DNA from: Paenibacillus sp. PvR098
GTDB taxonomy: Bacteria > Bacillota > Bacilli > Paenibacillales > NBRC-103111
DNA length: 64,000 bases
Reading direction: 5' to 3'
Assembly: GCF_017833255.1 (NCBI RefSeq)
Contig: NZ_JAFIBU010000001.1
Location: forward strand, 1,798,001-1,862,000
Shown: positions 1,941-20,765 of the stretch, piece after piece
Layout: each line of letters opens with the position of its first letter
Position numbering within the stretch: position 1 is the first letter of the stretch
Made by a program: the position numbers and the translations under genes
The notes under the pieces: model-generated
Seen by the model: the letters and a program-made list of their open reading frames with translations, nothing else
Database searches by the model: none
Told to the model about the DNA's origin: nothing

Positions 1941-2049
1941 CTTCCACCAAGTTGGCTAACTCACATTATAAACGTTATACTGAAATCGATGTGTCAGTTT
2001 CTGAACCAAAACTTTCATTATTCCAACTTCATGAGATCGGAGGAGGCGG

Positions 2050-2919
2050 ATGTCCATACTTCAATTTACGGCCCCGCCATTGCCGTACTATATTGTCAGT
2101 GATTACACTTTATTTCAGCCCGGACAAAAGCATTTGAATCGGCGGAACATCGGAGTTTTTGATTTGCTGGTAGTCACAAGCGGTTGTATTTATATAGGGG
2201 AGGAAGACCAGCGCTACGAAATTTCGGCAGGTCATGCGCTCATTCTCCGTCCTGACCGATATCATTACCCGACGGAAGCGTGCCGTGCGGAAACAAGGTA
2301 TTACTGGCTCCATTTCAATACGACCGGTAGTTGGGGAAGCACCGAGAGTGCGGATGCAGCACCGCAAGGGGAAGCTACGAATTTCAGCACTTATACAATG
2401 CAAACCTTTACAATGGCGATCCCTCAATTTGTTAAGCTGCTGCAGCCGACATCCGTATACGACATGCTTCAACAGCTAACCGAGCTGGAGCGCAAATCTC
2501 ATAACAACTGGGCGCGTTGGAAGCATCAGCTAATGTTTCAAAACATCCTCGAGCAGTTGAATGCCTCTTTTGATTTACGTGCGGTGATGCCCGGGACGAA
2601 TGTTGCGGACCGAGCCGCCTCTTACCTGCGCATGCATTATAAAGAGGATATTACAGCGCAAACTCTCGGGGAGGCGATGAACTTTCACCCTGTTTATATT
2701 GCGCGCTGTATGCAGAAGGAGTTCGGCTGCTCTCCATTCGAATATCTCATGAGGTACCGATTGGAGCAAGCCAAGCTGCTTCTCCTCCAAACCGATCTGC
2801 AAATCGCCCGGATCGCTGAGGATGTCGGTTTTCACCAGCCTTCCTACTTCAGCTCCAGCTTTACTAAATACGAAGGCCTCTCGCCCCGAGAATACCGTAG
2901 AGGATTTCGGAATATCTAA
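2050..2919 (+). CDS. AraC-family transcriptional regulator with cupin-type sensor domain
   Basis: A 289-residue protein. Residues about 1-150 form a cupin-like sensing region (GCIYIGEEDQRYEISAGHALILRP). Residues about 185-285 carry the double helix-turn-helix of AraC proteins, ending in the classical signature IAEDVGFHQPSYFSSSFTKYEGLSPREYR. Such proteins activate nearby genes in response to a small ligand, often a sugar or stress signal; the ligand cannot be read from the sequence. A strong GGAGGAGG ribosome binding site sets the ATG at 2050. It is transcribed away from the MATE gene across about 110 bp. Confidence 0.9.
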   Translation: MSILQFTAPPLPYYIVSDYTLFQPGQKHLNRRNIGVFDLLVVTSGCIYIGEEDQRYEISAGHALILRPDRYHYPTEACRAETRYYWLHFNTTGSWGSTESADAAPQGEATNFSTYTMQTFTMAIPQFVKLLQPTSVYDMLQQLTELERKSHNNWARWKHQLMFQNILEQLNASFDLRAVMPGTNVADRAASYLRMHYKEDITAQTLGEAMNFHPVYIARCMQKEFGCSPFEYLMRYRLEQAKLLLLQTDLQIARIAEDVGFHQPSYFSSSFTKYEGLSPREYRRGFRNI

Positions 2920-2936
2920 ATGGCATCATCTATCGT

Positions 2937-2976
2937 CAAAAAAGATCGGACTGCAGCAGCAGCCCGATCTTTTTGA
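2937..2976. terminator. Bidirectional intrinsic terminator
   Basis: AAAAAGATCGG pairs with CCGATCTTTTT around a GC-rich loop. A-tract and T-tract flank both sides, so it can end both the AraC gene (+) and the oxidoreductase gene (-). Confidence 0.85.
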
Positions 2977-3001
2977 CCTATTGGGGATAAGATTTACTTC
3001 T

Positions 3002-3985
3002 TTACAGTTTAACTACGATTTTTCCTCGTACATGTCTTTGAGATAATCGGATAAGCGCTTCTGGAACTTGTTCCAAGGATATGACCTCATTCACCATCGG
3101 ATCCACTTTCTTATCCAGCATCAGCTTCATGAATTCTTCTGCCATCCGAGCAAGGTCTCTCTCTGCCCTGTCGTCTCCTGACACATGAGCTCCGCCTAAC
3201 ATCAATTTGTGAACCGTGAACGTTTTGTGCGAAGGCTGAAAATCGGCAACCGTCTCAGGCGCTCCTGCGATACACGCCAATTGACCTCCAAACGCCAGCA
3301 TAGACAAATCGGCCTGTGCAGTCACCCGGTTAATGGAATTCAGAATAAGGTCGACCCCTAAACCATCAGTAACTTCCATGACTCGATCATGCACGTTCTC
3401 GTTGTTGTAGTCGATCACAACATGGGCGCCTAAGGTCTTGACATAATCCAAGCTGCCGGGTGATGCCGTCGTCATGATGTTGGAAGCGCCGAATGCTTTG
3501 GCCAGTTGGATCGCATAGCCGCCGACACCCCCGGCACCGGCGTGAATCAGGATAGAATGGCCCTTTTGCATATGCATTTTTCTATGTAGAGCTTGATAAG
3601 CCGTTAGCCCCGCACACGGGAAAGCTGCCGCTTCCACAAACGATATCCCATCCGGTACAGCGGCAACCGTATGTGCTGTTGTTACGCTATACTCTGCATA
3701 CCCACCTGGCTTAGAGAAGTTCCCGTGATATACAATCCGATCTCCGACAGACCAGTTCGTGACTCCTTCTCCAATTTCATCTATTGTCCCAGCTACATCC
3801 ACGCCGAGCACAAATGGATACACCCAATCCGGATGGCCGTTTAAAGAGACCTTATAGTCAATTGGATTCAAGCTTGCCGCCCCTACACGCACCCGAATTT
3901 CACCCGTTCCGGGCTTGGGCAGAGGTAATTCCGTTATTGTCAGAGTATCCGGTTTCCCCGGTTCGTTTAATACTAATGCTTTCAT
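3002..3985 (-). CDS. Zinc-independent MDR oxidoreductase (quinone reductase-like alcohol dehydrogenase)
   Basis: A 327-residue medium-chain dehydrogenase/reductase. The N-terminal GroES-like fold (to about 120) lacks the Cys/His zinc ligands. The Rossmann domain carries the NADPH-binding AGAGGVGGYAIQLAKAFGA at about 148. This places it with NADPH:quinone reductase-like enzymes that reduce quinones or alpha,beta-unsaturated carbonyls; the substrate is unknown. GGAGAATGCT upstream of the ATG supports the start. It is a single-gene unit between the AraC terminator and the haemoglobin gene. Confidence 0.88.
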   Translation of the reverse strand: MKALVLNEPGKPDTLTITELPLPKPGTGEIRVRVGAASLNPIDYKVSLNGHPDWVYPFVLGVDVAGTIDEIGEGVTNWSVGDRIVYHGNFSKPGGYAEYSVTTAHTVAAVPDGISFVEAAAFPCAGLTAYQALHRKMHMQKGHSILIHAGAGGVGGYAIQLAKAFGASNIMTTASPGSLDYVKTLGAHVVIDYNNENVHDRVMEVTDGLGVDLILNSINRVTAQADLSMLAFGGQLACIAGAPETVADFQPSHKTFTVHKLMLGGAHVSGDDRAERDLARMAEEFMKLMLDKKVDPMVNEVISLEQVPEALIRLSQRHVRGKIVVKL

Positions 3986-6632: not shown

Positions 6633-6645
6633 CGTAATTCTGTTA

Positions 6646-6731
6646 TGGTAGAGCCTAGGGGCTCGAACGAACCCCTCACCGGATCGCTGCCAGTGATGCG
6701 CTCTACCACAGTGGTTTAGTTTTACTGCCCC
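6646..6731 (-). pseudogene. Decayed tRNA-Ala copy
   Basis: Read on the minus strand, this starts GGGGCAGTA, keeps the anticodon arm with CTGGCAGCGAT (anticodon GGC) and keeps an AGGGG/CCCCT T-stem plus an AGGCTC acceptor end. It is clearly related to the intact tRNA-Ala at 20693-20765. The D-arm side is altered, the T-loop has about three extra bases and the acceptor stem no longer pairs. It is therefore not a working tRNA. It ends in an encoded CCA, unlike the intact gene. Confidence 0.65.
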
Positions 6732-7362: not shown

Positions 7363-7378
7363 ATGTTCTTATGTGTGG

Positions 7379-7420
7379 TGGAGCCTAGGGGGATCGAACC
7401 CCTGACCTCATCGCTGCCAG
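7379..7420 (+). repeat. Left attachment-site repeat (orphan 3' half of tRNA-Ala)
   Basis: 42 bases identical to 20693-20734, starting TGGAGCCTAGG and ending CGCTGCCAG. Both flanking bases differ, so the identity ends sharply. Confidence 0.9.
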
Positions 7421-7433
7421 GGTTCATCAACCC

Positions 7434-7567
7434 GTTATCGCTGGTTATCTGAAAGTCTCGGAAGGCTTGTCCCGCAATGTTTTTTGGCGCTTTTTATTAT
7501 TTTTGGTTATCGCAAAATCTAGGGCATTATCGGTATTTTGTTACCGGATTGTTACCGCGTTGTTACC
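7434..7567 (+). promoter_or_regulatory. Left-end motifs, candidate integrase arm sites
   Basis: GTTATCGCTGGTTAT (7434-7448) and GTTACCGGATTGTTACCG (7540-7557), followed by a further GTTACC. Near-identical motifs in the same orientation occur at the other end (20515-20529 and 20564-20581). Matching short repeats inside both ends are what arm-type binding sites of tyrosine integrases look like. Confidence 0.4.
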
Positions 7568-8454
7568 CCCCCATGATCTAATGAAGGTTCCTTTTGATGC
7601 TCCATTTCAAATTTAAGAACATCAATCTTTTTAGAAAGTTCCGTCATTTTCTCTGTCATGTCATTTAGATATTGCAATTGAACGGGTTCAAACTTGCGCT
7701 GTTGCTGTACGTTTTTAGATAACTCGTTAAGTTCGGCTAAAACTGATTTAACTTCATTTATTGCTGTATTAGTTTTTGCATGGACATTACTTATTTCATT
7801 CAATACTTTGTCATTATTACTTGTAGTCGGTATAATGAAGCTAGAAGTTGTAATCAATAACAAAAGCCCTACACAGACAAGGGAATTTCGTAATGAGGTA
7901 TTACTTGCTATTACATAATTACTAAGCTTTAAGTTGTCATACATTTTCAGCTCATAATTACGAGCAATTAAGTAAACTTTTTCCTTTAACATATTATCTT
8001 CATTTCCACTTAAAGTAACTAGATATTCCAAGTCATCCAAAGAAAAATCATTAGTAGGACGACTATTAAGAGTTTTTAGTGAATACCATCCACTGACAAT
8101 TAAGTAAAATACAAGTATTAATAATGCCAAGATTAATGAGATGTTAAAAAAATTATGATCTAGAAACTTTTCTCTTAAATTCAGAAGATATCCTGCCATC
8201 CCCCCAAATAATGTAAAGGAGACTGTTACCGCTACGGCAGTAACCTTTGCTTTATCTTCAAGCGATTTTCTATTATCTGAAAGATTTTCAAAAATCGAAT
8301 TCGCATCTTCAACAGATACCCCACGAAATTTATTCATTAGCGGAGTGTTCTCGTTCTGATTAATCTTTTCGAATGCCTTATTGATATCTTCTTGTATACT
8401 TTTCTCAGCACGATTTACTTTAATAAACGGTAAGAGCCCTTCAACTATTTTCAT
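7552..8454 (-). CDS. Membrane protein with three TM helices and C-terminal coiled coil, third gene of the graspetide-like operon
   Basis: A 300-residue protein with no recognised family. It has a soluble charged N-terminus (1-70), TM helices at about 73-92, 103-122 and 192-210, and a heptad-rich C-terminal tail (about 220-285) likely to form a coiled coil, with ELNELSKNVQQQ and MTEKMTELSKKI. Its ATG overlaps the end of the ATP-grasp gene by 14 nt, so translation is coupled. Position suggests a role in export, anchoring, immunity or effector action for the modified peptide. It is not an ABC transporter: no ATPase motif is present. The stop codon lies inside the left-end TTACC repeats. Confidence 0.75.
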   Translation of the reverse strand: MKIVEGLLPFIKVNRAEKSIQEDINKAFEKINQNENTPLMNKFRGVSVEDANSIFENLSDNRKSLEDKAKVTAVAVTVSFTLFGGMAGYLLNLREKFLDHNFFNISLILALLILVFYLIVSGWYSLKTLNSRPTNDFSLDDLEYLVTLSGNEDNMLKEKVYLIARNYELKMYDNLKLSNYVIASNTSLRNSLVCVGLLLLITTSSFIIPTTSNNDKVLNEISNVHAKTNTAINEVKSVLAELNELSKNVQQQRKFEPVQLQYLNDMTEKMTELSKKIDVLKFEMEHQKEPSLDHGGVTTR

Positions 8455-9400
8455 TATTTTTCCTCATTATCAAATTACAAATGCTTTCTGGTATTGCAAA
8501 GTTTGCTGATTCTACAAGCCATGCCCACTCACCAGTCGGATTGACTTCAATGAAATAATACTTACTGTCACTTTCGATTAAATCAATTGCACCAAAGGAT
8601 AATCCGAATGATTCCACAAGTTTAATACATTTCTGTGAAATATCTTGAGGTAATGAAAAAGGAGTAAACTGAACGTCATCTTTATGCAATCTCCAATCCC
8701 CTTCAACTCCTTTATTATCTTTAACAATTTTAACTGAAAAAACCTCATTTCCGACTACAGTAACACGAACATCAATTTTATTACCTATATATTCTTGTAC
8801 AATAATCGGTGATAAACTAAGATCAGAATTAGTAAATTCTTCGAAATTGACTATATTGGAATATACAAAAGCTTCTTTACCATCAACATTTAATAGAGCC
8901 GTATCAATTGATTTTACAATAAACTCATCTTCATCAATTACTCTCTGACTTGAAGTATTGGTTACAATCGTTTTCGGACATAAGAAGCCCAGCTCCGAAG
9001 CATATTTAAGTTGTAACAGCTTATTCTCAGCTTTAAAAGTTGAAATCGGGTTGTTTACCCAATTAACTTTTTCAAATATAGTTAGGTTTCTAATGAAAGC
9101 CATCCATTGTGAACGATATAACTGTTCTTCAGCTCCAAGTGACCCATTATTTAATTCTCGCAAATAAATCGGCGCTCGAAAATAAACACTTTTTAAATGA
9201 CTTTCGTTTATTAAGTACGTCTTTTCATTGAATTCGACCTTTAATGATAATGGATTAATGGTCAAAGTAATTTTGTAATAGTTAAACTCATCACGGTTTA
9301 TCCTGAAGTATGAAACTTTTCTATTCTTAAGTTCGAGACAGACGTAATCTGTAGTAAAATCCATCTTGTCCGAAATGATAAGTATATCGAGAGGAGTCAC
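8441..9400 (-). CDS. ATP-grasp peptide maturase of MvdD/TgmB type (graspetide macrocyclase-like)
   Basis: A 319-residue protein with the ATP-grasp layout of RiPP macrocyclases. It has an N-terminal domain with VYFRAP at 72, W-x2-NP at 114-118, an adenine/phosphate-binding part with VKSID at 162 and QEYI at 202, then DVRVTVVG (210), DWR (235), the Mg-binding GAIDL (270) and the EVNPTGEWAWL signature at 285-295. Family enzymes form side-chain ester or amide bonds between Asp/Glu and Thr/Ser/Lys of a precursor peptide. It starts with GTG in a GTGA overlap with the preceding 66-codon precursor-like gene, preceded by AGGTGA. The function of this member is inferred from motifs and operon. Confidence 0.85.
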   Translation of the reverse strand: MTPLDILIISDKMDFTTDYVCLELKNRKVSYFRINRDEFNYYKITLTINPLSLKVEFNEKTYLINESHLKSVYFRAPIYLRELNNGSLGAEEQLYRSQWMAFIRNLTIFEKVNWVNNPISTFKAENKLLQLKYASELGFLCPKTIVTNTSSQRVIDEDEFIVKSIDTALLNVDGKEAFVYSNIVNFEEFTNSDLSLSPIIVQEYIGNKIDVRVTVVGNEVFSVKIVKDNKGVEGDWRLHKDDVQFTPFSLPQDISQKCIKLVESFGLSFGAIDLIESDSKYYFIEVNPTGEWAWLVESANFAIPESICNLIMRKNNENS

Positions 9401-9597
9401 TTGCGGTCTTCACCTGTTTCTACGTCAGCCTTTTTTGTCATAGGCTTTGGTCTATTATTGTCCTTAACGAAAGGAGTACCCGTATCATTAATAACCCAAA
9501 AGCCTGCTTCTCCATCGAAATTGCAGTCATCAATTTGCGGGTTAATCCTGTTCGTTGGGTAAATATAAGCTTTAGCTAGCAATAAGTGATTTTTCAT
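9397..9597 (-). CDS. Candidate graspetide precursor peptide, 66 aa
   Basis: A small acidic/lysine-rich peptide encoded immediately before the ATP-grasp gene and overlapping it by 4 nt. Residues 1-20 are a hydrophobic/basic segment (HLLLAKAYIYP). The middle has DDCNFDGEAGFW and NDTGTPF. The last 16 residues (about 51-66) hold Thr54, Lys55, Lys56 and Thr61 next to Asp58, Glu60, Glu63 and Asp64, the donor/acceptor mix that ATP-grasp macrocyclases join. A good ribosome binding site (GGGAGAAG) supports the ATG. Which part is leader and which is core cannot be told from one sequence; a C-terminal core is the usual arrangement. Confidence 0.7.
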   Translation of the reverse strand: MKNHLLLAKAYIYPTNRINPQIDDCNFDGEAGFWVINDTGTPFVKDNNRPKPMTKKADVETGEDRK

Positions 9598-9718: not shown

Positions 9719-10477
9719 TTATTCTAAGCTCATCATCTGATCATAAAACAGTAGGGTATGAATTAATTTTCGTTTATCAGTCCCTTTATTATGGGCAGAA
9801 AAAGCCCATTCGACTTGAGATCGAGATATCCCGCTGGTCCAATTTACAGATGTCATCATTTTTTCCTCGATAACAACTTCGCCCTCTTTATTTTTATTTT
9901 TTACAGGAGATAGGTAATCGACGTAGATGTTGTGCTTTCTAGCATCCTTAAGATAATACTCAATGACTCCATTTTTCCACAAATTTATGCAATCCTCACT
10001 GATGACACACCCAGACCAATCATATATCCCTTCTTCAGTGTATGCTTTTACTAAAGCCTTGCCTACGAGCGTTATACGACCGACATCAAAATTGTGGTTC
10101 TCATTTTCTTTTTTTTGAAAGATGATAGGTCCTTTAGTAACAATTCCTCTTAGAGGAATTCCCGCCTTCATTCCTTCACTCAATATAATTCTAGTTGCTT
10201 CTGTGATTTCCAACAGTCCCCAAATATTATCATGATTTGTCCAAAGCATTATGCTGTCGGATATGACAAGCGAATTAATCATTGCGAATCTTGCATCATC
10301 GCCAAAATATTCAGATTTCCGATTCGTTATTCCTTTTAAAACAATCTTATCAAGTACATCGGTGTAGAGATTGCTTAGATACTCGTTCTCGTTATTCAAA
10401 ATTAGATTCTTAAAACCTAGAATATCCATGTAAGCAAAAAAAACATCTTGATTTTGATAAATTTTTGGCGAATTCAC
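9719..10477 (-). CDS. Class III nucleotidyl-cyclase-like protein (Pycsar-cyclase-like?), last gene of the hsd-NTase operon
   Basis: A 252-residue protein matching the cyclase homology pattern. Strand 1 is VFFAYMDILGF (Asp18 in the place of the first metal ligand). The hairpin ISDSIML has Asp74 as second ligand. GIPLRGIVTKG (106-116) and LVGKALVKAYTEE (137-149) correspond to the dimer-interface strand and helix, followed by CVISED. Single-domain class III cyclases of this kind include the cUMP/cCMP synthases of Pycsar anti-phage systems (established family knowledge); whether this one is active is inference. The start GTG at 10477 was chosen over an upstream ATG at 10504 because GGGAGGT lies 5 nt before it. 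It follows the nuclease-like gene by about 55 nt. Confidence 0.6.
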   Translation of the reverse strand: MNSPKIYQNQDVFFAYMDILGFKNLILNNENEYLSNLYTDVLDKIVLKGITNRKSEYFGDDARFAMINSLVISDSIMLWTNHDNIWGLLEITEATRIILSEGMKAGIPLRGIVTKGPIIFQKKENENHNFDVGRITLVGKALVKAYTEEGIYDWSGCVISEDCINLWKNGVIEYYLKDARKHNIYVDYLSPVKNKNKEGEVVIEEKMMTSVNWTSGISRSQVEWAFSAHNKGTDKRKLIHTLLFYDQMMSLE

Positions 10478-10532
10478 ATGCACCTCCCAAAGGCGCAATA
10501 ACATAGTTTATAAACGTTTCATTTTTCACAAG

Positions 10533-11264
10533 CTATATCGAATCCAGCGCTTTAGCATATTCTGAAATATCAAGAGCAGGGATAGTCCCTAGCTTTTGCA
10601 AGTCAATTAAAAGTTTTAAAAAGAAAAATATAAGCGTTTCCTGTTGTGAACTTTTTTCAATTTGCAACTCTTCTCCATAGACTGTTCGAAATGAACCGGA
10701 TTTTAATGCGCACCCAATATCAAGTTGTTCTTCAACATCTAACGATTTAATCACATTTTCAAAGCTATCGCCTAATGGGGGATTCCAGGAACTTTCTAAG
10801 CAAAGTATTCCCGATATAATTTTTGAATGAGCTTTTGGTGGAAGTATGCCGCCGGCATGATGTATTGGAGCAGATGTTCTAATTAGCTGCCTAGCACTTT
10901 TAGTTTTCTGTCCCGCATACTCAATATATTGTTTATTCAACTCAGGTTTCACTTCAAAAATTGCATAAACACTTTCGGCAGGTATATACACAGCTCCATC
11001 TTGATTGAAGACAAATGGGGTATATTGCTGGTCATAAATAACAACATCAATTTGGTCACTAATGTTATTTTGTGAATCGATAAGAAACGCCCTATCTACC
11101 TGGTATCTTTTTGGCAGATATACTTTTAGCCATTTTATCCAATTGATTTCAAAGGAATCACCTTTGGTAGTTGGGTGTGTCAATATACTTCGATTAGCTG
11201 CTAATTGAGAAATCATTTGATTTTGTAATTCATAAAATATTGTCCTTAAATCAGGCTTTTTCAT
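10533..11264 (-). CDS. PD-(D/E)XK-nuclease-like protein (resembles DUF6602 proteins)
   Basis: A 243-residue protein. In the N-terminal half: GDSFE (Glu39), then QIDVVIYD (Asp73) and YAIFEVKPEL (Glu104-x-Lys106). This E...D...ExK order on alternating strands is the PD-(D/E)XK nuclease core. The C-terminal half is helical and unassigned. I recall similar proteins as DUF6602, often beside nucleotidyltransferases, but cannot verify that here. The ATG at 11264 was chosen because TAGGTGA lies 5 nt upstream; a GTG at 11273 directly abuts the stop of the nucleotidyltransferase gene. Either way the two genes are translationally linked, suggesting an enzyme-effector pair. Confidence 0.65.
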   Translation of the reverse strand: MKKPDLRTIFYELQNQMISQLAANRSILTHPTTKGDSFEINWIKWLKVYLPKRYQVDRAFLIDSQNNISDQIDVVIYDQQYTPFVFNQDGAVYIPAESVYAIFEVKPELNKQYIEYAGQKTKSARQLIRTSAPIHHAGGILPPKAHSKIISGILCLESSWNPPLGDSFENVIKSLDVEEQLDIGCALKSGSFRTVYGEELQIEKSSQQETLIFFFLKLLIDLQKLGTIPALDISEYAKALDSI

Positions 11265-11273
11265 TTTCGTCAC

Positions 11274-12032
11274 CTACCAGATTATTTCACTCCAATATTT
11301 TTTAGCTAGCGCTTGTTCAGCAAGTTGAACAATTTTTCTTTTTTCTTGCTTGTTTAAGTCATCTGAGATTATGTTGTTCGTGTTTGATGGATCTACAATA
11401 CGCTTATCTAAAAAATCATTTTTCAAATAATGAAAAACCTTCCATACATTTGTGGCGCATTGGTTCTTATTTGAATGTTTTAATGCTTCAAGTACAGAGA
11501 GTTCAAGGAATATAGAAGGAAAATCAAGATTGTTAATATGTCTCCATATCTTCATGACCCTAATTTCATCACATCTTCCGGATTCACTCACAATTTTAAT
11601 GTGATTTTTCACATTTGTTTGAGTCCAAGTATCAGTTTTGCTCTTGTAAAGACTATGATAATTTGTGTTTCCTTTTTGTTTCTTTCCTGGGACAAGGTCA
11701 ATATCAAGACCGTTATATTTAATTCCTATTGACACATTTTGTCTGCGTGAAGGTATTTCATTCTTATAATTATCAAAGAGTGAGTCGAAAATATATTGCA
11801 AGGTGTATGGTGTATCTGATTTCAAAGAGATAAACAGATCTAAATCGGCACTTCCTTTCACACCAGTCCCCTTCGCATATGACCCAGAGAAATGAACCTC
11901 ATTCAGAAAATCTCCAGCCCAACTTTTAATCGAACTGAATAACAAGTTTGCTGTCTTATGTGCAGGGGAATTCACTCCTGCATGCTGCTGATATTTCCGA
12001 ACAACTGAAAGCACATATTCTTCCGCAGTCAT
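11274..12032 (-). CDS. CD-NTase/OAS-like nucleotidyltransferase
   Basis: A 252-residue polymerase-beta-fold nucleotidyltransferase. GSYAKGT at 50-56 is the nucleotide-binding GS motif, DLDLF at 63-67 holds the two catalytic Asp, and LDIDLVP at 109-115 gives the third carboxylate. The C-terminal part has DPSNTNN (214-220) and a closing helix, a pattern shared by OAS and bacterial CD-NTases that make oligonucleotide signals in CBASS. It is shorter than most CD-NTases (about 300-400), so a mini-CD-NTase or a distinct NTase is possible. AGGAGA precedes the ATG. It begins 25 nt after hsdR, so it is part of the hsd operon. Confidence 0.75.
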   Translation of the reverse strand: MTAEEYVLSVVRKYQQHAGVNSPAHKTANLLFSSIKSWAGDFLNEVHFSGSYAKGTGVKGSADLDLFISLKSDTPYTLQYIFDSLFDNYKNEIPSRRQNVSIGIKYNGLDIDLVPGKKQKGNTNYHSLYKSKTDTWTQTNVKNHIKIVSESGRCDEIRVMKIWRHINNLDFPSIFLELSVLEALKHSNKNQCATNVWKVFHYLKNDFLDKRIVDPSNTNNIISDDLNKQEKRKIVQLAEQALAKKYWSEIIW

Positions 12033-12057
12033 CTATTTCTCCTGTTCTTATTGACGC

Positions 12058-15000
12058 CTAGTATTGTCCTTTACTTTCAGCAGCCAATGAATGATTGTAG
12101 TTGTTAGCTTTAAAATCATACGGATTGTATTTCATCTGCAACTCTGCCTGTTTTATTACAAGCTCAGTTGCCTCAGGAATTTCATCAGGTGGGTATTTGT
12201 ATTTTTTAAGCAAGCGTTTGATGAGTGAGCGCATGTTTGCTTTGGCATCATTACGTTTGTACCAATCTGGTGTCTTGTTCTCAGAAATAAGTTGAATAAG
12301 GTTCTTCGCCATCTCCCGAAGCACATCAGATTGATAATGTTCCTTAACCAGTTCAGGCTTTGCTAGAGCGTCATAGAAAGCTTGTTCTTCCGGTGATAAC
12401 TGCATATCGATTCCTTCATTTAATGCTGACTCGATTTCCTTAGCAATATCAATCATCTGTGTAATCAGCACATCAATGTCTTCAGCCTGATTGTACCGCT
12501 CAACAATGTTCTTCAATTTCTCGGAGAAGAAGCCAGAGCGAACAATGTTGGTTTGCTCGAACCATTTAATTTTATCGTCAATTAACTTTTTTAATATTGT
12601 TGCAGCGACATTCTTACGTTTCATTGCCATAATCTTTTCTAAATTTTCGACAGACAGAAGACTCTTTTCCTTTTTAGCGGAGATGGATACAACTTCGTCA
12701 CCGTCTCTAATAATTGCTTGCTCGATCATCGCAGTTATTTTCTTCTTAAAAGCTTCTACATCTGGCATTCCATCACGTTCAACCTTGACGATAAATGATT
12801 TTACTGCCATGAAAAAGCTTACTTGTACCCGAACGGCAAAATCCAAAGCAGTCGCACAGATGTTATAAGCACTTTGGAGCCTCGTTACATGCTTAAGAAA
12901 CACTTCCTTAGTACGCTCTTTAAGCACATGCTCTACGCCGTCTTGAATCAATTCAAACCGCTCTCTGGGCGTTGCATTCATGTACTTGCTGAAATCAAAG
13001 CCATGGAACATACCCTCAAGAATTTCTACTTCCGTCATAAGGATTTCCTTAGCTTTTTCAATCTCAGGAATACTATTTTTATCCCGGCTTGTATAAGTGT
13101 TAAGTGCTTCTTTCAAATACTTACTAAGCCCGATATAATCAACAATCAGTCCAGCTTGTTTATCTTTATATACACGATTAACCCTTGCGATCGCTTGCAT
13201 CAAATTATGTTCTTTCATAATTTTATCGATGTACATGGTATCTAGGCTTGGAACATCGAAGCCAGTTAGCCACATATCAACGACGATAGCGATCTTCATA
13301 TCACTGTTATCGTCCTTGAACTGATTGGCGAGCGTCTGACGATGTTGCTTGTTGCCGATGATATCTCTCATTTCCTGATTCGTGTCTTTGTTGCTGTCGC
13401 TCAGCACCAAACCGATTTTGTTACCAATTTCAGGAGACTTTTCTTTGATAAGCTGATACATTCGATAGGCGATTTTTCTGGAGTAAGCAACAATCATAGC
13501 TTTACCTTTGAGCATGTTCTTGCGGATCTCGTAATGCGCAAGTATATCGTCTACAACCAGCTTGAGCCGGTCTTCATCCCCGATGACGGCTTCCATCGTG
13601 ACAAGATCCTTCTTCAGCTTCTCGATTTTCTCAGGAGTTAATCCTTGAGATTCAATCTTCGCAACTTCAGCATCAATTTGATCGAGAATGCCCTCATCCA
13701 AATGTACCTTTGCAAGGCGATTCTCATAATGCAAATCAACGGTTGCTCCGTCCAGTTTTGCTTGTGTCATGTCATACACATCAATGAGTTCACCAAATAC
13801 GCCGATGGTCGATTTATCATTCGAGTCAATAGGTGTACCGGTAAATCCGATGAAAGTAGCGTTTGGCAGCGCATCTCTCAAATATTTGGCATAACCGTAC
13901 ACAAGCTCGGCTTCGAGAGTCTTTTTATCAATCTTCATATCAGGGTCGATTCCATACTGGGAACGATGCGCTTCGTCAGCAATGACGATAATATCATGAC
14001 GATTTGAGAGCAGACCGGTCTCCTCCGTAAACTTCTGTATGGTCGTAAAGAAGATACCGCCCACAGAACGGTTCTCTAGCAGCTCAATCAGGTTTTCCCG
14101 AGACTCTGCACGAACAGGCGCTTGTCGGAGAAAATCCGCCGCGCTACTGAATGTGCCATGTATTTGCTCATCGAGGTCATTTCGGTCGGTTACTACAACA
14201 ATCGTCGGATTATTTAATCGCTGAATAAGTCCATCAGAGAGAAAGACCATTGAGAATGACTTGCCTGAGCCTTGTGTGTGCCAAACGACCCCACCACGCT
14301 TATCGGCATCTATCGCACGAACAACGCTATCAATGGCTTTGTTCATACCGAAATATTGATGATAACCGGCAATGATTTTGGCTTTGCCGCCAGCGAAGAA
14401 AGTAAAGTTGCGAACAATGTCCAGCAAACGCTCTTTTTGCAGCATTCCTTTAAGCAGCGTAGTAATTTGTGCAATATGCGGTTCATCAACAATGGGAGAG
14501 TTGCGATCCACTTGTTTCCACTGCATATACCGATCATAGTCGGCGGTAATGGAACCAACTCTCGCGTTTACGCCATCGCTTATTATGCTGAAAGCATTGT
14601 AATGAAACAAAGGCTTGATGATGTCCTGATATGTCTTGATCTGAAGATAGCCGTCATGAATGGTCGCATCTTCTCTAACTGTTGATTTCAACTCGATGAC
14701 AACGAGTGGCAATCCATTGACGAACACAACGACATCCGGTCTCTTCTCAGCTTTGTGAATGACAGTGAATTGGTTGATTGCCAAGAACGTGTTATTATTC
14801 GGATGATCGAAATCGATGACCTTTACGATACGGGAGGGGACATCCTCGCCGTAAACTTCAATACTAACGCCTTCGATCAGGTATTTCTGAAATTGTTGGT
14901 TCGCGGCGAACAGACTCGCATCGTCAATGTATGTGAGCTTGCGAAGCGCAGCTTCAATGATTTCTTCCGGCAGGGAAGGATTCAACGAGAAAAGTGCATC

Positions 15001-15129
15001 ACGCAAATCATGTTCAAGCACGACAAAATGATAGTCACGCTCGAAATCGTAGCCGTTTAGTATAGAATAGCCAAGCTCATCTTGCAAAAGTTCGAGAACA
15101 ACCGATTCCAGACTATCTTCGGTAAACAT
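12058..15129 (-). CDS. hsdR: Type I restriction endonuclease subunit R
   Basis: 1023 residues, a normal length. The N-terminal nuclease domain carries the PD-(D/E)XK end motif VVIELKS at about 147. The SF2 translocase has Walker A HTQGSGKS (about 286), DEAHRSQYG (about 388), GFTGTPID and the downstream motif QAIARVNR. The C-terminal helical domain binds the methylase core. The subunit cuts unmodified DNA after ATP-driven translocation. The ATG at 15129 lies 15 nt after the hsdS stop with GGTGGTGATC upstream. No frameshift or missing motif is seen, so it should be active. It is followed without a terminator by the nucleotidyltransferase gene. Confidence 0.96.
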   Translation of the reverse strand: MFTEDSLESVVLELLQDELGYSILNGYDFERDYHFVVLEHDLRDALFSLNPSLPEEIIEAALRKLTYIDDASLFAANQQFQKYLIEGVSIEVYGEDVPSRIVKVIDFDHPNNNTFLAINQFTVIHKAEKRPDVVVFVNGLPLVVIELKSTVREDATIHDGYLQIKTYQDIIKPLFHYNAFSIISDGVNARVGSITADYDRYMQWKQVDRNSPIVDEPHIAQITTLLKGMLQKERLLDIVRNFTFFAGGKAKIIAGYHQYFGMNKAIDSVVRAIDADKRGGVVWHTQGSGKSFSMVFLSDGLIQRLNNPTIVVVTDRNDLDEQIHGTFSSAADFLRQAPVRAESRENLIELLENRSVGGIFFTTIQKFTEETGLLSNRHDIIVIADEAHRSQYGIDPDMKIDKKTLEAELVYGYAKYLRDALPNATFIGFTGTPIDSNDKSTIGVFGELIDVYDMTQAKLDGATVDLHYENRLAKVHLDEGILDQIDAEVAKIESQGLTPEKIEKLKKDLVTMEAVIGDEDRLKLVVDDILAHYEIRKNMLKGKAMIVAYSRKIAYRMYQLIKEKSPEIGNKIGLVLSDSNKDTNQEMRDIIGNKQHRQTLANQFKDDNSDMKIAIVVDMWLTGFDVPSLDTMYIDKIMKEHNLMQAIARVNRVYKDKQAGLIVDYIGLSKYLKEALNTYTSRDKNSIPEIEKAKEILMTEVEILEGMFHGFDFSKYMNATPRERFELIQDGVEHVLKERTKEVFLKHVTRLQSAYNICATALDFAVRVQVSFFMAVKSFIVKVERDGMPDVEAFKKKITAMIEQAIIRDGDEVVSISAKKEKSLLSVENLEKIMAMKRKNVAATILKKLIDDKIKWFEQTNIVRSGFFSEKLKNIVERYNQAEDIDVLITQMIDIAKEIESALNEGIDMQLSPEEQAFYDALAKPELVKEHYQSDVLREMAKNLIQLISENKTPDWYKRNDAKANMRSLIKRLLKKYKYPPDEIPEATELVIKQAELQMKYNPYDFKANNYNHSLAAESKGQY

Positions 15130-15144
15130 GTGATCACCACCAAT

Positions 15145-16425
15145 CTATAGTTCAATTTCCGATATGTCGATTTCTCCGGACATGAGTTTAGGAAGAAGGG
15201 CGTCGCGTAAGTAGGACAATACCTTAACTTCATCACCATTCCTTTTCATTCGTTGAAGGAAACTATCCGTTATTAGTCCAAATTGTTCGAGGATATAACT
15301 CGGCGGTAGTGCCATTAAATAAAATTCAAAACACGATTCAGGTACTCTTTGCCTCCCTGATGATCCAGACATATTTCTAATTGCATGATTCCGAAAATCT
15401 TCGGTTCTGGCTAGAAAATATGCAAATCCAAGAGCATGTTCATTTTTACTTCTCAATACAATAAATTCTGTTGAACCCCACCCAACTTCATCAGCATCAA
15501 GAAAATCAACAATTATTGTTTTTCCGTTTTCCAAACAAGGTGTTATTCTTGCCAACAAAACATCGCCATTAATAAACTTGCTTCCAGATGTAAATTCTCT
15601 TTCAATCCAGTCAGTTGCTCTCGCTGAGAATGAGGGAAGGTTTTTCATTTCCAGATATACAGCGTTTGTTCCTTTTTTCAAAGATCTCTTGGGATTGATA
15701 TGTAATACATCGGTTACTTTCCCTACTCTCCATCCCTTGGGAATCTCTTTTCCAAGTTCCTCACACCATTCCATCTCGCCGCCGCTGGACTTGTAAGGTT
15801 CACCGTCTTCATTCGGAAACTCAAAATCAACGAACCATTGCTTGAAAATTGCCTGAGCCATTTGTTCAAGGACTTTGTTTAAACGGTTGTTGAGTTCGAT
15901 TTTTTCGTCAAGAGCGGAGAGGAATGACGCGATTTTTTTCTGGCTTGGGAGTTTCGGTATGGTTATTTCAATTTCACCAATTTGTTTTAAATTAATATTT
16001 GGTTGAGCTGATTGAGCAGAAGAACTATTTACATATTCTATAACGCTCTTTTGGTTTAAATAATAATAAATATAGTTATGATCAGCTAATTTTTGATCCA
16101 ATCTAATTAACGCCACAGCCTGGTTAATATTTGATGGTATGTCGGATTTTGTCACTACAGCTGTTTTACCAAGGAACATACCAGCCATTGAGAAAAGAAT
16201 ATCATACTCATTCAATTGAGATCTTCGCATTTTTTCTTGAGTTGAATCATTAATAAATTTCAGTTTGCTCTTATCCAAATATTTGCTATCAGTTAGAGAT
16301 TCAGCTCTAAAAAATTTAACACCTTCGTTAGTAAAACCGCTACCTATGGTAGATGGAGTTGTCCCTTTGGTTATCTTTAGCGAAAGATCTCCTAATTTTA
16401 CGGGTTTCCAATCATCAAAACTCAT
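15145..16425 (-). CDS. hsdS: Type I restriction-modification specificity subunit S
   Basis: 426 residues with two target-recognition domains (about 1-150 and about 215-370). Each is followed by a conserved helical spacer: LPSQKKIASFLSALDEKIEL with LNKVLEQMAQAIFKQWF after the first, and VLSYLRDALLPKLMSGEI at the C-terminus. It sets the bipartite DNA target for HsdM and HsdR. The ATG at 16425 (MSFDDWKPVKLGD) was chosen because the recognition domain begins there; it overlaps the hsdM end by 11 nt. The central part is more AT-rich than hsdM and hsdR, as usual for exchangeable recognition domains. Confidence 0.95.
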   Translation of the reverse strand: MSFDDWKPVKLGDLSLKITKGTTPSTIGSGFTNEGVKFFRAESLTDSKYLDKSKLKFINDSTQEKMRRSQLNEYDILFSMAGMFLGKTAVVTKSDIPSNINQAVALIRLDQKLADHNYIYYYLNQKSVIEYVNSSSAQSAQPNINLKQIGEIEITIPKLPSQKKIASFLSALDEKIELNNRLNKVLEQMAQAIFKQWFVDFEFPNEDGEPYKSSGGEMEWCEELGKEIPKGWRVGKVTDVLHINPKRSLKKGTNAVYLEMKNLPSFSARATDWIEREFTSGSKFINGDVLLARITPCLENGKTIIVDFLDADEVGWGSTEFIVLRSKNEHALGFAYFLARTEDFRNHAIRNMSGSSGRQRVPESCFEFYLMALPPSYILEQFGLITDSFLQRMKRNGDEVKVLSYLRDALLPKLMSGEIDISEIEL

Positions 16426-17911
16426 ACCCGATAGCCCCCAGACTCTTCTTGATCTTCTCATCCAGCACAGAAGAATCCGACATCAAATCTGCAAGCTCTG
16501 AAACAAGCTTCTCCATCTTTTCCTCAAACGGCTCATCATCTGTAATTTCCTTCACACCAACGTACCGCCCAGGTGTAAGTACATTATTATGCTTTTGAAT
16601 CTCTTCCAGATTTGCCGACTTGCAAAAACCAATTTCATCTTGATATCCGTCATTGTTCAGCCATTTGTGGTACGTATCTGCAATCGATTTAATGTCATCT
16701 TCATTCAATTCACGCAACTTGCGGCTGATCAACGTTCCCTTATCACGGGCATCAATAAACAGCACTTCGCCTTTGCGTTTCTTGCCGCGACGCAGGAACC
16801 ATAAACAAACCGGAATACCCGTAGTAAAGAAGAGCTTATCCGGCAGCGCCACAATACAATCGACCAAATCTTCCTCAATAAACTTGGCACGGATATTGCC
16901 TTCACCAGAAGTTTGGGACGATAAAGAACCGTTTGCCAGTACAATACCGGCAACACCTTTGGACGGTTTCAGCTTCGAAATCATATGAGAGAGCCAACCA
17001 TAGTTCGCATTCCCTTTTGCCGGAATGCCCCATTTCCAGCGCGAATCGTTCAGGAGGCTGTCTTGTCCCCAATCGCTGATATTGAATGGGGGATTAGCCA
17101 AGATATAATCAAATTTCACATCCTTAAATTGATCGTCATGGAAGGTGTCCGCGTGAATTTTTCCAAGATTCGCTTCAATTCCACGAATGGCAAGGTTCAT
17201 CGTCGCAAGTCGGCGTGTCTCCGCATTTAGTTCTTGACCATAGACGGATAGCTTGTATGCATTGCCGCCATGCGCTTGCACGAACTTCTGCGCTTGAACG
17301 AACATACCTCCTGAACCACAGCAGGGGTCATAAATGGTGCCTTCAAATGGTTCAATCATTTCAACCAGTAATTTAACAACGCTGCTGGGCGTATAAAACT
17401 CACCGCCGCCTTGTCCGAGCATAAAGGCGAATTTGCCGAGGAAATATTCGTATACGCGACCAAGCGCATCTTCTTCAATCAGCAACGTATCGGCGTTTTC
17501 AAACACCATCACGACTTCGCCAACTCTGCGTTGGTCAACATCGGCACCGGAATAAATCTTCGGAAGGACCCCGGCAAGCTTCTTATTTTCTTTCTCGATG
17601 GCAATAAAGGCTTCATCAATGATTTGTCCGATATTTGGCTTCGTTGCGTTCTCGATAATATGCTTCCAGCGAGCCTTTTCCGGCACATAAAATACATTGA
17701 AACGTTCGTATTCATCGCGATCATCTTCAAAACCGTCGCCTTCTGCCACAAGCTCGTTGTAGCGATGGTCGAACCGGTCCGATATGTATTTAAGAAAAAT
17801 GATGCCGAGTACGACATCTTTGTATTTGGAAGAGGCGATACTGCCTCTGAGCTTATCTGCGGCTGCCCATAGTTTATCTTCTAAGCTCGTAACAAGATTT
17901 TCCTTTGCCAT
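16415..17911 (-). CDS. hsdM: Type I restriction-modification methyltransferase subunit M
   Basis: 498 residues. The N-terminal HsdM helical domain (LEDKLWAAADKLRGSIASSKYK) is followed by an N6-adenine methyltransferase with the SAM motif IYDPCCGSGGMF and catalytic NPPF (YILANPPFNISDWG). With HsdS it methylates the target and protects the host DNA. The ATG at 17911 was chosen over an upstream TTG because GGAGG lies 11 nt before it. It is the first gene of the operon hsdM-hsdS-hsdR-NTase-nuclease-cyclase. Upstream, TATAAT-like hexamers around 17943-17965 may be its promoter. Confidence 0.96.
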   Translation of the reverse strand: MAKENLVTSLEDKLWAAADKLRGSIASSKYKDVVLGIIFLKYISDRFDHRYNELVAEGDGFEDDRDEYERFNVFYVPEKARWKHIIENATKPNIGQIIDEAFIAIEKENKKLAGVLPKIYSGADVDQRRVGEVVMVFENADTLLIEEDALGRVYEYFLGKFAFMLGQGGGEFYTPSSVVKLLVEMIEPFEGTIYDPCCGSGGMFVQAQKFVQAHGGNAYKLSVYGQELNAETRRLATMNLAIRGIEANLGKIHADTFHDDQFKDVKFDYILANPPFNISDWGQDSLLNDSRWKWGIPAKGNANYGWLSHMISKLKPSKGVAGIVLANGSLSSQTSGEGNIRAKFIEEDLVDCIVALPDKLFFTTGIPVCLWFLRRGKKRKGEVLFIDARDKGTLISRKLRELNEDDIKSIADTYHKWLNNDGYQDEIGFCKSANLEEIQKHNNVLTPGRYVGVKEITDDEPFEEKMEKLVSELADLMSDSSVLDEKIKKSLGAIGYEF

Positions 17912-18156
17912 TACGTTTGAATCCTCCAATGATTGTTTGTCTTTAATTATAACTGATATTATAGACGATAAGATGTCAGGAAACGGATGTTCCGGTGGTA
18001 ATTAAATGATACGATAAATCCGACACGATCTTTATTGTTTCGACTAACTGCTTCCAATTTCCTGCTTATATAGGAAAAAAGCCCCGCATCAATTCAAGCG
18101 GAGCGTAGAACATAGATTCTCGAAAATTAATCTTTTTTCTCTAAAAGAAAAAATAA

Positions 18157-18582
18157 TTAGCACTTAAGCAAAGACTGGACGGTAGTAATGAAAGAGTTAT
18201 TATGAATACCGAAATCCACCTTATTTAGGAGAAGTTGAGATCCATCTTGAAAGGTCAATTCCAACTGTACGTCTTTAAACCTACTAAATGCCGTTATTTC
18301 CCCATGAGATATTGTCATCATTTGAATATTTTTTTGAGTAATATCACTAATTTTCCTAACAGTAAATTGAACATCCGGATTTTCATTAAAAAAATTAATT
18401 GTCCCATTTACAATGAATGATTGGTTATGGGCGAGAAATACTATTGGCATATTATTATCTCGGTCTGTTTTCAAAAATACGGTTTCTTCGCCTTCCGGGA
18501 CCGTCGCTTCAAGTAATGATTGTAGCTGTCTTCCACATTCAAACCGTTTTAACCAATCAATAAAATTATGGTAAGAGTCCAT
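18157..18582 (-). CDS. Unknown 141-aa protein paired with the SEFIR/TIR gene
   Basis: No recognised family. It has an N-terminal helical part (FIDWLKRFECGRQLQSLLEA) and then an alternating strand pattern (VFLKTD, MPIVFLAHNQSFIVNG, VQFTVRKI, VQLELTFQDG), suggesting a small beta-barrel or PH-like fold. There is no signal peptide or TM helix. It lies 21 nt downstream of the SEFIR/TIR gene with AGGGAGAA before its ATG, so it is co-transcribed. A partner, sensor or antitoxin of the TIR protein is plausible by position only. Downstream A/T-rich inverted repeats near 18127-18157 may end the unit. Confidence 0.7.
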   Translation of the reverse strand: MDSYHNFIDWLKRFECGRQLQSLLEATVPEGEETVFLKTDRDNNMPIVFLAHNQSFIVNGTINFFNENPDVQFTVRKISDITQKNIQMMTISHGEITAFSRFKDVQLELTFQDGSQLLLNKVDFGIHNNSFITTVQSLLKC

Positions 18583-18603
18583 ATGTAATTCTCCCTAATG
18601 CGT

Positions 18604-19587
18604 CTATATTTTCAAGGCAGTTAGAATATGGTTCTTCCAAATCGTACGCACGATTGTCTCGGGTGTTGTCGATTCATCGCGGTCATAGAAATTCATTGTC
18701 ATCCTGAGAGATAGGGTATCATTTTTAACTTCACTATAAATCATCTCATTCATTGAATTATCATTAAAGGAATGTGCTCCATAATGGAAATTTATTGATG
18801 GAGATGAATGGCTAAACCCACCGACCCACATTTTAAGCCCTGTTTTCAGTTGTCCATCTACGTAAGAATTAAACATGCATTTTTGGCTACTGTCCTCAAC
18901 AAGAGTAAACTTGAAATTTGGATTTACGGACTGAACATGCTCGAACAATTGGATAAAGAGATCTTTCACCTCTTTATAACTTCGTTTAAGATGTTCTTCT
19001 TTATCGAGATCCGTGTATTTTTTTAGATTTGGCATTTGAATATCTGCAAACAAAGATTTTGCTGACTTAGTTGGTACTGATGGTGTAATCACTGCTGAAT
19101 CAAATTGTGGTATTTCCCCTAAAGGCGCTTTTTGATAAGGACTAACTCGGTAAATCCGGCGTATCAATTCCTGTAGCTTGTTTTCAAATTGTTCCTCATT
19201 CGAAAAGTCAATCGCATAATAGTCCTGCATATGGAAAGGAAATACTACATCGAAATCCCCTGAATGTCGCATTATTAAAATAATTTTATCTTTATTTCTA
19301 CGTAGCGTTGGTAATAGTAACTCCGATTCAAAACCAACTCCACCAGTAAATGAATTTGCCTTATTAGCGTAATTTTCTGTTAGGACAACAACTACATAGT
19401 CATAATCATGCATAGCCTCGATCATCATTTGGTTTAAATTAACTGTTTTCTCGTATAACACAAACTTGTCAATTTGTGCATCGATTCCACCATCAGCACG
19501 TAACCGATTGGCGAGATCTACGACCCATTGTTCATGCTGGCGATTATCCCAACTATAGCTAAAAAAAGCTTTTATTCGCTCTTTCAT
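18604..19587 (-). CDS. SEFIR/TIR-domain protein, probable NADase-type defence effector
   Basis: 327 residues. Residues 4-150 form a SEFIR/TIR domain: KAFFSYSWDNRQHEQWV at the start, then DYVVVVLTENYA and TGGVGFESELL, with Glu87 in the position of the catalytic Glu of TIR NADases. Residues about 190-327 are an unassigned C-terminal domain, perhaps the sensor. Bacterial TIR/SEFIR proteins usually deplete NAD+ or make cyclic ADP-ribose signals in anti-phage defence (family knowledge). It starts at an ATG behind GAAGGGG. It lies just upstream of the hsd operon but has its own unit with the 141-aa gene. Role here inferred. Confidence 0.78.
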   Translation of the reverse strand: MKERIKAFFSYSWDNRQHEQWVVDLANRLRADGGIDAQIDKFVLYEKTVNLNQMMIEAMHDYDYVVVVLTENYANKANSFTGGVGFESELLLPTLRRNKDKIILIMRHSGDFDVVFPFHMQDYYAIDFSNEEQFENKLQELIRRIYRVSPYQKAPLGEIPQFDSAVITPSVPTKSAKSLFADIQMPNLKKYTDLDKEEHLKRSYKEVKDLFIQLFEHVQSVNPNFKFTLVEDSSQKCMFNSYVDGQLKTGLKMWVGGFSHSSPSINFHYGAHSFNDNSMNEMIYSEVKNDTLSLRMTMNFYDRDESTTPETIVRTIWKNHILTALKI

Positions 19588-19739
19588 ACGAACCCCTTCT
19601 TTCGGGTGTTAAGATTGTATGGGTATTACAATAATGGCACATCAAGAAACATACGTTCCTATAATTTATTATAAGAATTATTGATTCTCGGGTCAATGTG
19701 TACTACAACATCCGTGATTCATTAGACCAACCCTTCCAT

Positions 19740-20138
19740 TTACCCGGTTGCAAAAGAAAAAAGCCCCACATCAGCAGAGCAATGATTCAACTCAAATACA
19801 ACATTTATATTTAAATTGGCGTAATGGTGGCTTAGCTTAAATTCAATTCGTGGCACCCCATCTGATGGATAATCCGGAATAATACATTCAACATATTTAT
19901 CCAATCCTTCAGATTGAATCAATTGAAAAGCCCTCCTCATAGCTTCGGGGCAATAACGCTGTTTTTCTCCCTTTAGAACGTATAGGTTAAGTTTATGTGC
20001 TTTACCACTGATTTTTTCATAATCCATATAGGAAAAGGATAGTGGGGGATGCGAAATTTTATCTTTGTCCGTTACGTATGTAAAACCATGACGTTTTAGC
20101 AAGTTTGTAATCTTAGAGCGTAATTCTTTTCTGTTCAT
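19740..20138 (-). CDS. Unknown 132-aa protein at the edge of the integrase remnant
   Basis: No recognised family. The first 20 residues (MNRKELRSKITNLLKRHGFT) are basic and helical; the rest is mixed alpha/beta with VPRIEFKLSHHY and INVVFELNHC. A good ribosome binding site (GAGAGGCG) supports the ATG at 20138. The sequence encoding this upstream region, read on the other strand, belongs to the integrase fragment, so the gene appears to have been joined to it by a deletion or insertion that removed the integrase N-terminal part. The A-rich end near 19750 resembles the end of the TIR operon. Confidence 0.6.
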   Translation of the reverse strand: MNRKELRSKITNLLKRHGFTYVTDKDKISHPPLSFSYMDYEKISGKAHKLNLYVLKGEKQRYCPEAMRRAFQLIQSEGLDKYVECIIPDYPSDGVPRIEFKLSHHYANLNINVVFELNHCSADVGLFSFATG

Positions 20139-20140
20139 GT

Positions 20141-20470
20141 TTATTCGCCTCTCGATATGCTCAAGAGCTTTATCAGGAACATAATTTGGTCTGCCCCACG
20201 TCTGTCGGCACTCCGATTAATCCAAGTAATTTAAGACGAAGTTTATACCGCATTATCAAAAAAGCAAGCGTTACTCGTGTTACATTTCATGAATTAAGGC
20301 ATAGTCATTTAACTCATTTATTAATGGCTGGAGTCGATTCAAAAATAGCTGCCTCTAGAGGTAGACATAGTTCCACAAGGGTTACCAATGACATTTATCG
20401 ACATGTCATAAAAGGTGTCCAGCGGGATGCACTTACAAAGTACCGAGAAATTATTCCCACAAAAAAATAA
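20141..20470 (+). pseudogene. C-terminal fragment of a tyrosine-recombinase integrase
   Basis: From about 20141 the + frame reads ...QELYQEHNLVCPTSVGTPINP, then VTFHELRHSHLTHLL (box II His-x-x-Arg-His), GRHSST and the Tyr box VTNDIYRHV. These are the catalytic H-x-x-R, H and Tyr of phage/ICE integrases. The N-terminal arm-binding and core domains and the box I Arg are missing, and no start codon is evident, so it is dead. Its position next to the tRNA attachment site is that of the element's own integrase. Confidence 0.85.
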
Positions 20471-20679: not shown

Positions 20680-20692
20680 AATTCTTGTTTTA

Positions 20693-20734
20693 TGGAGCCT
20701 AGGGGGATCGAACCCCTGACCTCATCGCTGCCAG
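20693..20734 (+). repeat. Right attachment-site repeat inside tRNA-Ala
   Basis: 42 bases identical to 7379-7420, covering the tRNA from discriminator base to anticodon loop. Confidence 0.9.
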
Positions 20735-20765
20735 CGATGCGCTCTCCCAGCTGAGCTAAGGCCCC
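20693..20765 (-). tRNA. tRNA-Ala, anticodon GGC
   Basis: 73 nt on the minus strand. The acceptor stem GGGGCCT/AGGCTCC has one G-U pair. There is a D-arm GCTC...GAGC, an anticodon stem CATCG/CGATG with loop CTGGCAG (anticodon GGC), a T-arm AGGGG-TTCGATC-CCCCT and discriminator A. The 3' CCA is not encoded. The 3' half is the island attachment site and remains intact after integration. Confidence 0.97.

Follow-up and report, generated by a model that had tools for sequence, protein, structure and literature searches.

In a cyclic-oligonucleotide-based antiphage signalling system (CBASS), a cGAS/DncV-like nucleotidyltransferase (CD-NTase) is the cyclic oligonucleotide synthase, and NucC, a DNase of the PD-(D/E)XK type, can be the effector. 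Known NucC enzymes respond to cyclic tri-adenylate. The CBASS of Escherichia coli MS115-1 carries HORMA and TRIP13 genes in addition. Further defence genes occur embedded in type I restriction operons, PrrC among them. Two reports give other cases: DarTG2 of enteropathogenic E. coli sits between hsdS and hsdR, a gap called a potential recombination hotspot (PMC12255303), and TgvAB of Vibrio cholerae consists of defence genes embedded in a type I operon, with RloF and GmrSD homologues named in type I loci (PMC11411939). The locus compared here with these systems is a six-gene cluster on the minus strand (positions 9719 to 17911) of a 64,000-nt stretch of Paenibacillus sp. PvR098, called the window. 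It is explained, with considerable confidence, as part of a mosaic defence island at a tRNA-Ala gene, in which an hsdMSR operon is followed by a two-gene CBASS and then by the cyclase-fold protein CYC as a likely independent passenger. CYC is most likely separate from the CBASS pair and not the third part of one machine. The cluster shares with DarTG2, TgvAB and PrrC a second defence unit within or against the hsd operon. In the window this cargo is a CBASS located 3' of hsdR, whereas cargo of the DarTG2 type lies between hsdS and hsdR. A literature search over titles and the openings of abstracts, which covered few subscription papers, found no description of a CBASS directly behind hsdR or of the CYC family.

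The six genes are listed in the order of transcription, with E values in brackets.

16415 to 17929, minus strand: hsdM, type I methyltransferase subunit, likely start ATG 17911 (Pfam N6_Mtase 3.4e-107, HsdM_N 1.3e-26; PADLOC MTase_I 1.5e-191)
15145 to 16461, minus strand: hsdS, type I specificity subunit (Pfam Methylase_S 1.6e-29; PADLOC Specificity_I 1.9e-103)
12058 to 15129, minus strand: hsdR, type I restriction/translocase subunit (NCBIfam hsdR 1.5e-183; PADLOC REase_I 3.2e-295)
11274 to 12032, minus strand: CBASS CD-NTase, 252 aa (PADLOC PDLC00803, Pfam SMODS, PDB CdnC 6p80)
10533 to 11264, minus strand: NucC, PD-(D/E)XK DNase effector of CBASS (PADLOC PDLC00745, PDB NucC 6p7o, Pfam DUF6602)
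9719 to 10474, minus strand: CYC, 251 aa, protein with a class III nucleotidyl cyclase fold, family undescribed (predicted structure)

An earlier note on this DNA had described six minus-strand genes with short gaps and no terminator between them. The open reading frames (ORFs) agree in position and order, no gap exceeds 58 nt, and the gaps contain 0 terminator-like sites. The hsdS ORF overlaps hsdM, with an internal ATG near 16425 as its likelier start. Gaps of 15 nt and 25 nt separate hsdS from hsdR and hsdR from the CD-NTase gene. The NucC ORF is open from GTG 11273, immediately after the CD-NTase stop, and has an ATG 9 nt further in. The CYC ORF spans 9719-10504; GTG 10474, behind GGGAGGTG, would leave 58 nt after the nuclease stop and ATG 10504 would leave 28 nt. 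Co-transcription across the cluster is plausible. Side by side and each with its family domains in Pfam, PADLOC and NCBIfam, hsdM, hsdS and hsdR form a type I restriction-modification system.

The nucleotidyltransferase recognised in the earlier note is a CD-NTase. PADLOC model PDLC00803 covers it end to end (1.7e-87 over residues 1-252), Pfam SMODS matches with 2.6e-7, and the match to E. coli CdnC in the PDB is weak (6p80, 3.5e-6). The GS, the DxD and the third Asp do not vary among 32 aligned sequences, one of them the window's, which were picked among 120 matches listed of 1435 found; the note had made conservation of the catalytic residues a condition for its cassette. The D, the P and two of the N residues in DPSNTNN are likewise invariant in this alignment. 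The neighbouring protein, predicted as a PD-(D/E)XK-like nuclease, proved to be of the NucC type by its matches in PADLOC ('Endonuclease (NucC)', 8.8e-99), Pfam (DUF6602, 1.3e-33) and the PDB (solved NucC 6p7o, 5.5e-54 over residues 6-240). The alignment with the solved enzyme includes the SDQID and FEVK stretches, which presumably form the active site; PMC8682760 yielded no residue numbers for NucC. Because both proteins match curated CBASS models, they belong to an already described kind of CBASS; judged by sequence, the pair is a described two-gene unit. It resembles CBASS with a NucC effector (PDLC00803 plus PDLC00745) in the near end-to-end matches, the adjacency of the genes and the conserved catalytic residues. 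It differs from the CBASS of E. coli MS115-1 by the absence of HORMA and TRIP13 genes.

The pair recurs. The 24 loci of CD-NTase relatives comprise 11 from genome searches in the order and the phylum (392 and 398 genomes, with the window genome in both and some others shared), 11 of 23 plasmid hits and two viral contigs. NucC follows the CD-NTase in 18 of the 24: 7/11 genome loci, 9/11 plasmid loci and 2/2 viral contigs. NucC was counted from the DUF6602 annotation of the record in L149 and L152 and is split by an IS21 element in L147. On the viral contigs, the pairs are located at 7944-9493 (L174) and 1530-3036 (L175). Only 2/25 CD-NTase loci, the window included, lie behind hsdR. The other, L102, shows the window's order hsdM-hsdS-hsdR-CD-NTase-NucC, although its restriction system is divergent.

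Relatives of CYC are present in 0 of the 24 CD-NTase loci. Conversely, relatives of the window's CD-NTase or NucC were found near CYC in 0 of 90 loci: the best 80 of 151 genome loci found, four from a phylum search (5/299 genomes, the window's included) and six viral contigs. At least 3 kb on both sides is available in only 57 of the 80, so that the absence of partners is weaker evidence in the remaining ones. The earlier note had proposed a new composite of nucleotidyltransferase, nuclease and cyclase and suggested a neighbourhood search; this search found no recurring trio, and on these counts the trio is rejected as a recurrent system. Homologues that are never neighbours elsewhere were to mark a chance cluster, which applies to the trio and not to the CD-NTase-NucC pair. 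The tempting reading of a new trio is therefore corrected: apparent trios arise in defence islands through exchangeable cargo at the 3' end of a restriction operon. The core of the cluster is a known kind of CBASS in the cargo place of a restriction operon, and the CYC family is worth biochemistry.

CYC has no family at E<=1 in Pfam, PADLOC or NCBIfam and no PDB sequence match at E<=1. When the PDB sequences were searched by profile with A1, three weak matches came up, the best a dynein light chain (E 0.027), and these were taken as chance. Its predicted structure has the fold of the class III cyclase homology domain, and the Foldseek matches include a cytidylate cyclase structure (8jsf, E 3.3e-6, rank 45). 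The first metal Asp, D18, is conserved in 43/44 aligned sequences (one gap) and 78/80 genome loci (two gaps), the second, D74, in 44/44 and 80/80. In class III cyclases, the helix that follows strand 5 carries an Asn and an Arg for the transition state. At these positions, mapped by alignment, CYC of the window has V and T; the pair is found in 0/44 and 0/80 sequences, and single residues in the genome loci are rare (Asn 1/80, Arg 2/80). Of the class III cyclase pattern seen in the earlier note, the fold and the two metal Asp are thus confirmed and the Asn/Arg pair of the signature is not. The base-selecting residue, four before the second Asp, is Lys in adenylyl and Glu in guanylyl cyclases. 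It is L in the window; Lys or Glu occurs in 0/44, Lys in 2/80, Glu in 0/80 and Arg in 1/44 and 6/80. The second base-contacting residue in strand 5 is Asp, or Ser, Thr or Cys in guanylyl cyclases. CYC of the window has T here, 22/44 sequences have S or T, and 16/44 have I, V, A or L. The active site is non-canonical: the fold and the two metal Asp are kept, and the Asn/Arg pair and the base-selecting residue differ. CYC is a member of an undescribed cyclase-fold family.

Among known defence proteins, PycC of Pycsar is alike in the class III cyclase fold, the two metal Asp and an aromatic residue two positions ahead of the first Asp. Base recognition by PycC involves F100, R142 and Q144 in clade E and F60, K104 and F109 in clade D (PMC11224242). 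The corresponding Y16, L70, I72 and M77 of CYC fit these sets at the aromatic first position only. No PADLOC effector match was obtained for the two genes downstream of CYC, the Pycsar model content of the library being unchecked; the second of these genes looks membrane-like.

CYC may be a defence enzyme of its own family that works independently of CBASS, is carried mainly alongside restriction-modification genes and on proviruses, and has CBASS neighbours only incidentally; we regard the chances of this reading as about even. Five of the 80 genome loci adjoin restriction-modification genes. Window-like hsd genes account for three of them: hsdM-hsdS-CYC-hsdR (L038), hsdM-hsdS-DUF6414 gene-CYC-hsdR (L086) and hsdM-hsdS-DUF2971 gene-hsdR-158-aa gene-CYC (L077). 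In L031 (5963-9783), the gene directly upstream overlaps CYC by 7 nt and encodes a type IIG-like protein of 1001 aa that matches Eco57I and HSDR_N, and in L081 (2532-8780) a helicase and then a 972-aa Eco57I-type methylase directly precede it. Such a neighbour was not seen in the other 75/80 loci, which argues against this reading. Clustering of 550 neighbours of the 80 loci yielded no family in more than four loci. Of five families that reach four, one is HsdM-like (L031, L038, L081, L086). Scanned members of the others (L041, L053, L063, L064, L075) are repeat, surface or sensor proteins with beta-hexosaminidase C-terminal, Sel1, LRR or PAS/GAF histidine kinase domains, and these families are likely joined through repeats or common domains. 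The remaining family appeared generic by eye.

The relatives themselves provide a further link, to GmrSD. At E<=1e-3, 656 database proteins were recovered by profile search. Among the 120 listed, at least five (P0137, P0139-P0142; 431-472 aa, 37-40% identical) have an N-terminal GmrSD_N/DUF262 domain as known from GmrSD-type DUF262 proteins, a domain that CYC of the window lacks. The fusions include four named Bacillus cereus-group proteins. The match of P0141 (38.2 bits) is above the Pfam cut-off of 33.2, but the other four are weaker and do not pass it. These fusions were not found on plasmids, where a search with P0142 gave no record covering more than 43%, nor in viral contigs scanned with P0141. 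CYC relatives are present on six viral contigs; there was no match on plasmids with P0001 or P0010 and none in phage records with P0011. In two of these contigs (L168, 3005-3793; L169, 7920-8708), CYC lies between apparent terminase and portal genes, with the phage genes named by eye, in line with transport on proviruses. Both links, to restriction and to GmrSD, hint at a role in defence without proving it. CYC marks a family of 656 proteins that combines a cyclase fold, a conserved metal site and non-classical active-site residues with connections to restriction-modification and GmrSD_N.

A second reading treats hsdMSR and CBASS as one co-selected two-tier unit, with CBASS docking preferentially at the hsdR 3' end in this order. 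It is considered rather unlikely. A close HsdR was present in 18 of 246 genomes of the order, the window's included, and the 17 other loci were inspected. Three genomes with 90-92% identical HsdR (L107, L128, L129) have downstream genes that differ from those of the window and from one another, and DNA similarity to them stops short of the hsdR end by 11-61 nt. Upstream, L107 shares the SEFIR and Enas-like genes described below; L128 and L129 do not, and have a more divergent hsdS. A co-directional gene follows within 100 nt of hsdR in 14/17 loci, one 78-aa ORF being left out. Cargo was scanned in 13 loci, of which 12 gave a PADLOC match at E<=1e-3, weak or partial in some (L129, L135, L137), and L107 gave none. 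CBASS of other types, complete or in part, stands directly behind hsdR in 3/17: a patatin effector and CD-NTase in L132, CD-NTase, E2 and SAVED-HNH in L133, and a 2TM effector, QueC, TGT and CD-NTase in L139. These loci favour a two-tier unit, as does L102. The same place also takes a Stk2 kinase, DUF262 proteins, TIR proteins and candidate families, which argues against it. The preference for CBASS rests on 3/17 loci and the window in a single order, and only 2/25 loci of the CD-NTase survey lie behind hsdR. Ordinary defence-island clustering may suffice.

CBASS behind hsdR as a general rule was rejected. A phylum-wide sample, queried with the HsdR of L132, gave 23/199 genomes, the window's included, and 24 loci; 24 of 25 places were taken, the other being a contig piece of a gene already counted. 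A phmmer search with four CD-NTases found a CD-NTase in 0/24, although 5/24 hold less than 3.5 kb downstream and several run into apparent housekeeping genes. Four relatives of the L102 HsdR (L164-L167), one of them 91% identical, are without CD-NTase-NucC (0/4), and the first gene behind hsdR in L164 and L165 has no PADLOC match. The proposal of one operon with a restriction barrier may hold for this locus; it does not extend to a fixed unit, as hsd operons are found lacking the CBASS pair and CBASS pairs lacking an hsd operon. If the preference for CBASS behind hsdR holds in a larger survey, a coupling of restriction and abortive infection becomes testable. As a separate observation, the gene before hsdM in L132 (3975-5582), the only locus scanned for this, matches N6_Mtase and Methylase_S, and similar-looking genes of about 530-570 aa precede hsdM in L133-L140.

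A wider proposal seems improbable: that the hsdR 3' end in this order repeatedly acquires unrelated CBASS types, which act with restriction as a co-transcribed two-tier unit, and that CYC of the window contributes another nucleotide signal, its undescribed cyclase-fold family being restriction-associated and, in other genomes, joined to GmrSD_N. Equally little credence is given to CYC as a functional third CBASS part that makes or destroys a nucleotide tuning or guarding NucC, for example as a decoy or a second signal. Its co-directional position 58 nt behind NucC, with no terminator-like site between, and its nucleotide-handling fold with both metal Asp are consistent with such a part, but the 0/24 and 0/90 counts are not. 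A chance pile-up of defunct genes, to which the integrase remnant of the island might point, is hardly credible, as none of the six ORFs is interrupted, CD-NTase and NucC retain their catalytic residues and CYC retains its metal site.

Some observations weigh against the mosaic of a described CBASS pair and a separate passenger. Six of the 24 CD-NTase loci are without NucC: L106 and L107 belong to a different CD-NTase clade, in L108 and L109 the CD-NTase is followed by genes that by eye resemble type II CBASS ancillary genes, and L153 and L154 have the most distant CD-NTases. The closest CYC relative, P0002 (69%), is on a 1.7-kb contig whose context could not be read. Other CD-NTase clades near CYC could have been missed because only relatives of the window proteins were sought. 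With gaps this short and free of terminator-like sites, CYC is possibly transcribed together with its neighbours and might have taken on a local role.

In the mosaic island, integrated at the tRNA-Ala gene, the hsdMSR operon would be the first barrier, and the minimal two-gene CBASS is located directly behind hsdR. Upon infection, the CD-NTase may synthesise a cyclic oligonucleotide, probably cyclic tri-adenylate in view of the known response of NucC enzymes. The oligonucleotide would assemble NucC into its active form, cell DNA would be degraded and the infection presumably aborted. CYC would be an independent passenger, possibly with its own defence-related nucleotide chemistry.

The limits of the island and a neighbouring defence module are given by the following features.

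18604 to 19587, minus strand: SEFIR/TIR-domain defence protein, neighbouring module (PADLOC bSEFIR 2.8e-54)
20186 to 20470, plus strand: tyrosine recombinase C-terminal fragment close to the tRNA, island integrase remnant (Pfam Phage_integrase 6.8e-12, only profile positions 102-168 of 172)
20686 to 20734, no strand: tRNA-Ala 3' end, probable attachment site (tRNA gene 20693-20765, minus strand)
7372 to 7420, no strand: repeated tRNA-Ala 3' end, probably the attachment site on the far side of the island (direct repeat, 49 nt, 94% identical to 20686-20734)

The G+C content of the measured island genes is 0.32-0.37, except for hsdM (0.455) and hsdR (0.423). Outside the island, polA has 0.53 and nrdR 0.52, both genes named by eye. 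A third copy of the tRNA-Ala-derived repeat at 6645-6693 is 61% like the copy at 7372-7420 and may mark an older insertion. Another direct repeat of 41 nt, 78% identical, is located at 18051-18091 and 19733-19773. The SEFIR gene is followed in the region 18157-19587 (minus strand) by a gene whose 141-aa product matches Pfam Enas weakly, below the cut-off. Both genes also precede the related hsdMSR of L107.

Behind CYC, a 66-aa peptide ORF (9597), an ATP-grasp gene (8441-9400) and an apparent membrane protein gene (7552-8454) on the minus strand (7552-9597) resemble a ribosomal-peptide cluster within the island. The ATP-grasp protein is like the graspetide maturases MvdC and MvdD, below their NCBIfam cut-offs. 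CYC as part of this module is not supported. An ATP-grasp with 31% identity to that of the window is present in the CYC locus L078, together with an overlapping gene, whose product has no BLASTP match to the membrane protein of the window. ATP-grasp genes of the window type occur in 3/217 genomes, the window's own included, and in the other two (L162, L163) the fetched 20 kb contain no CYC (0/2). In both, the ATP-grasp gene is again followed by an overlapping gene.

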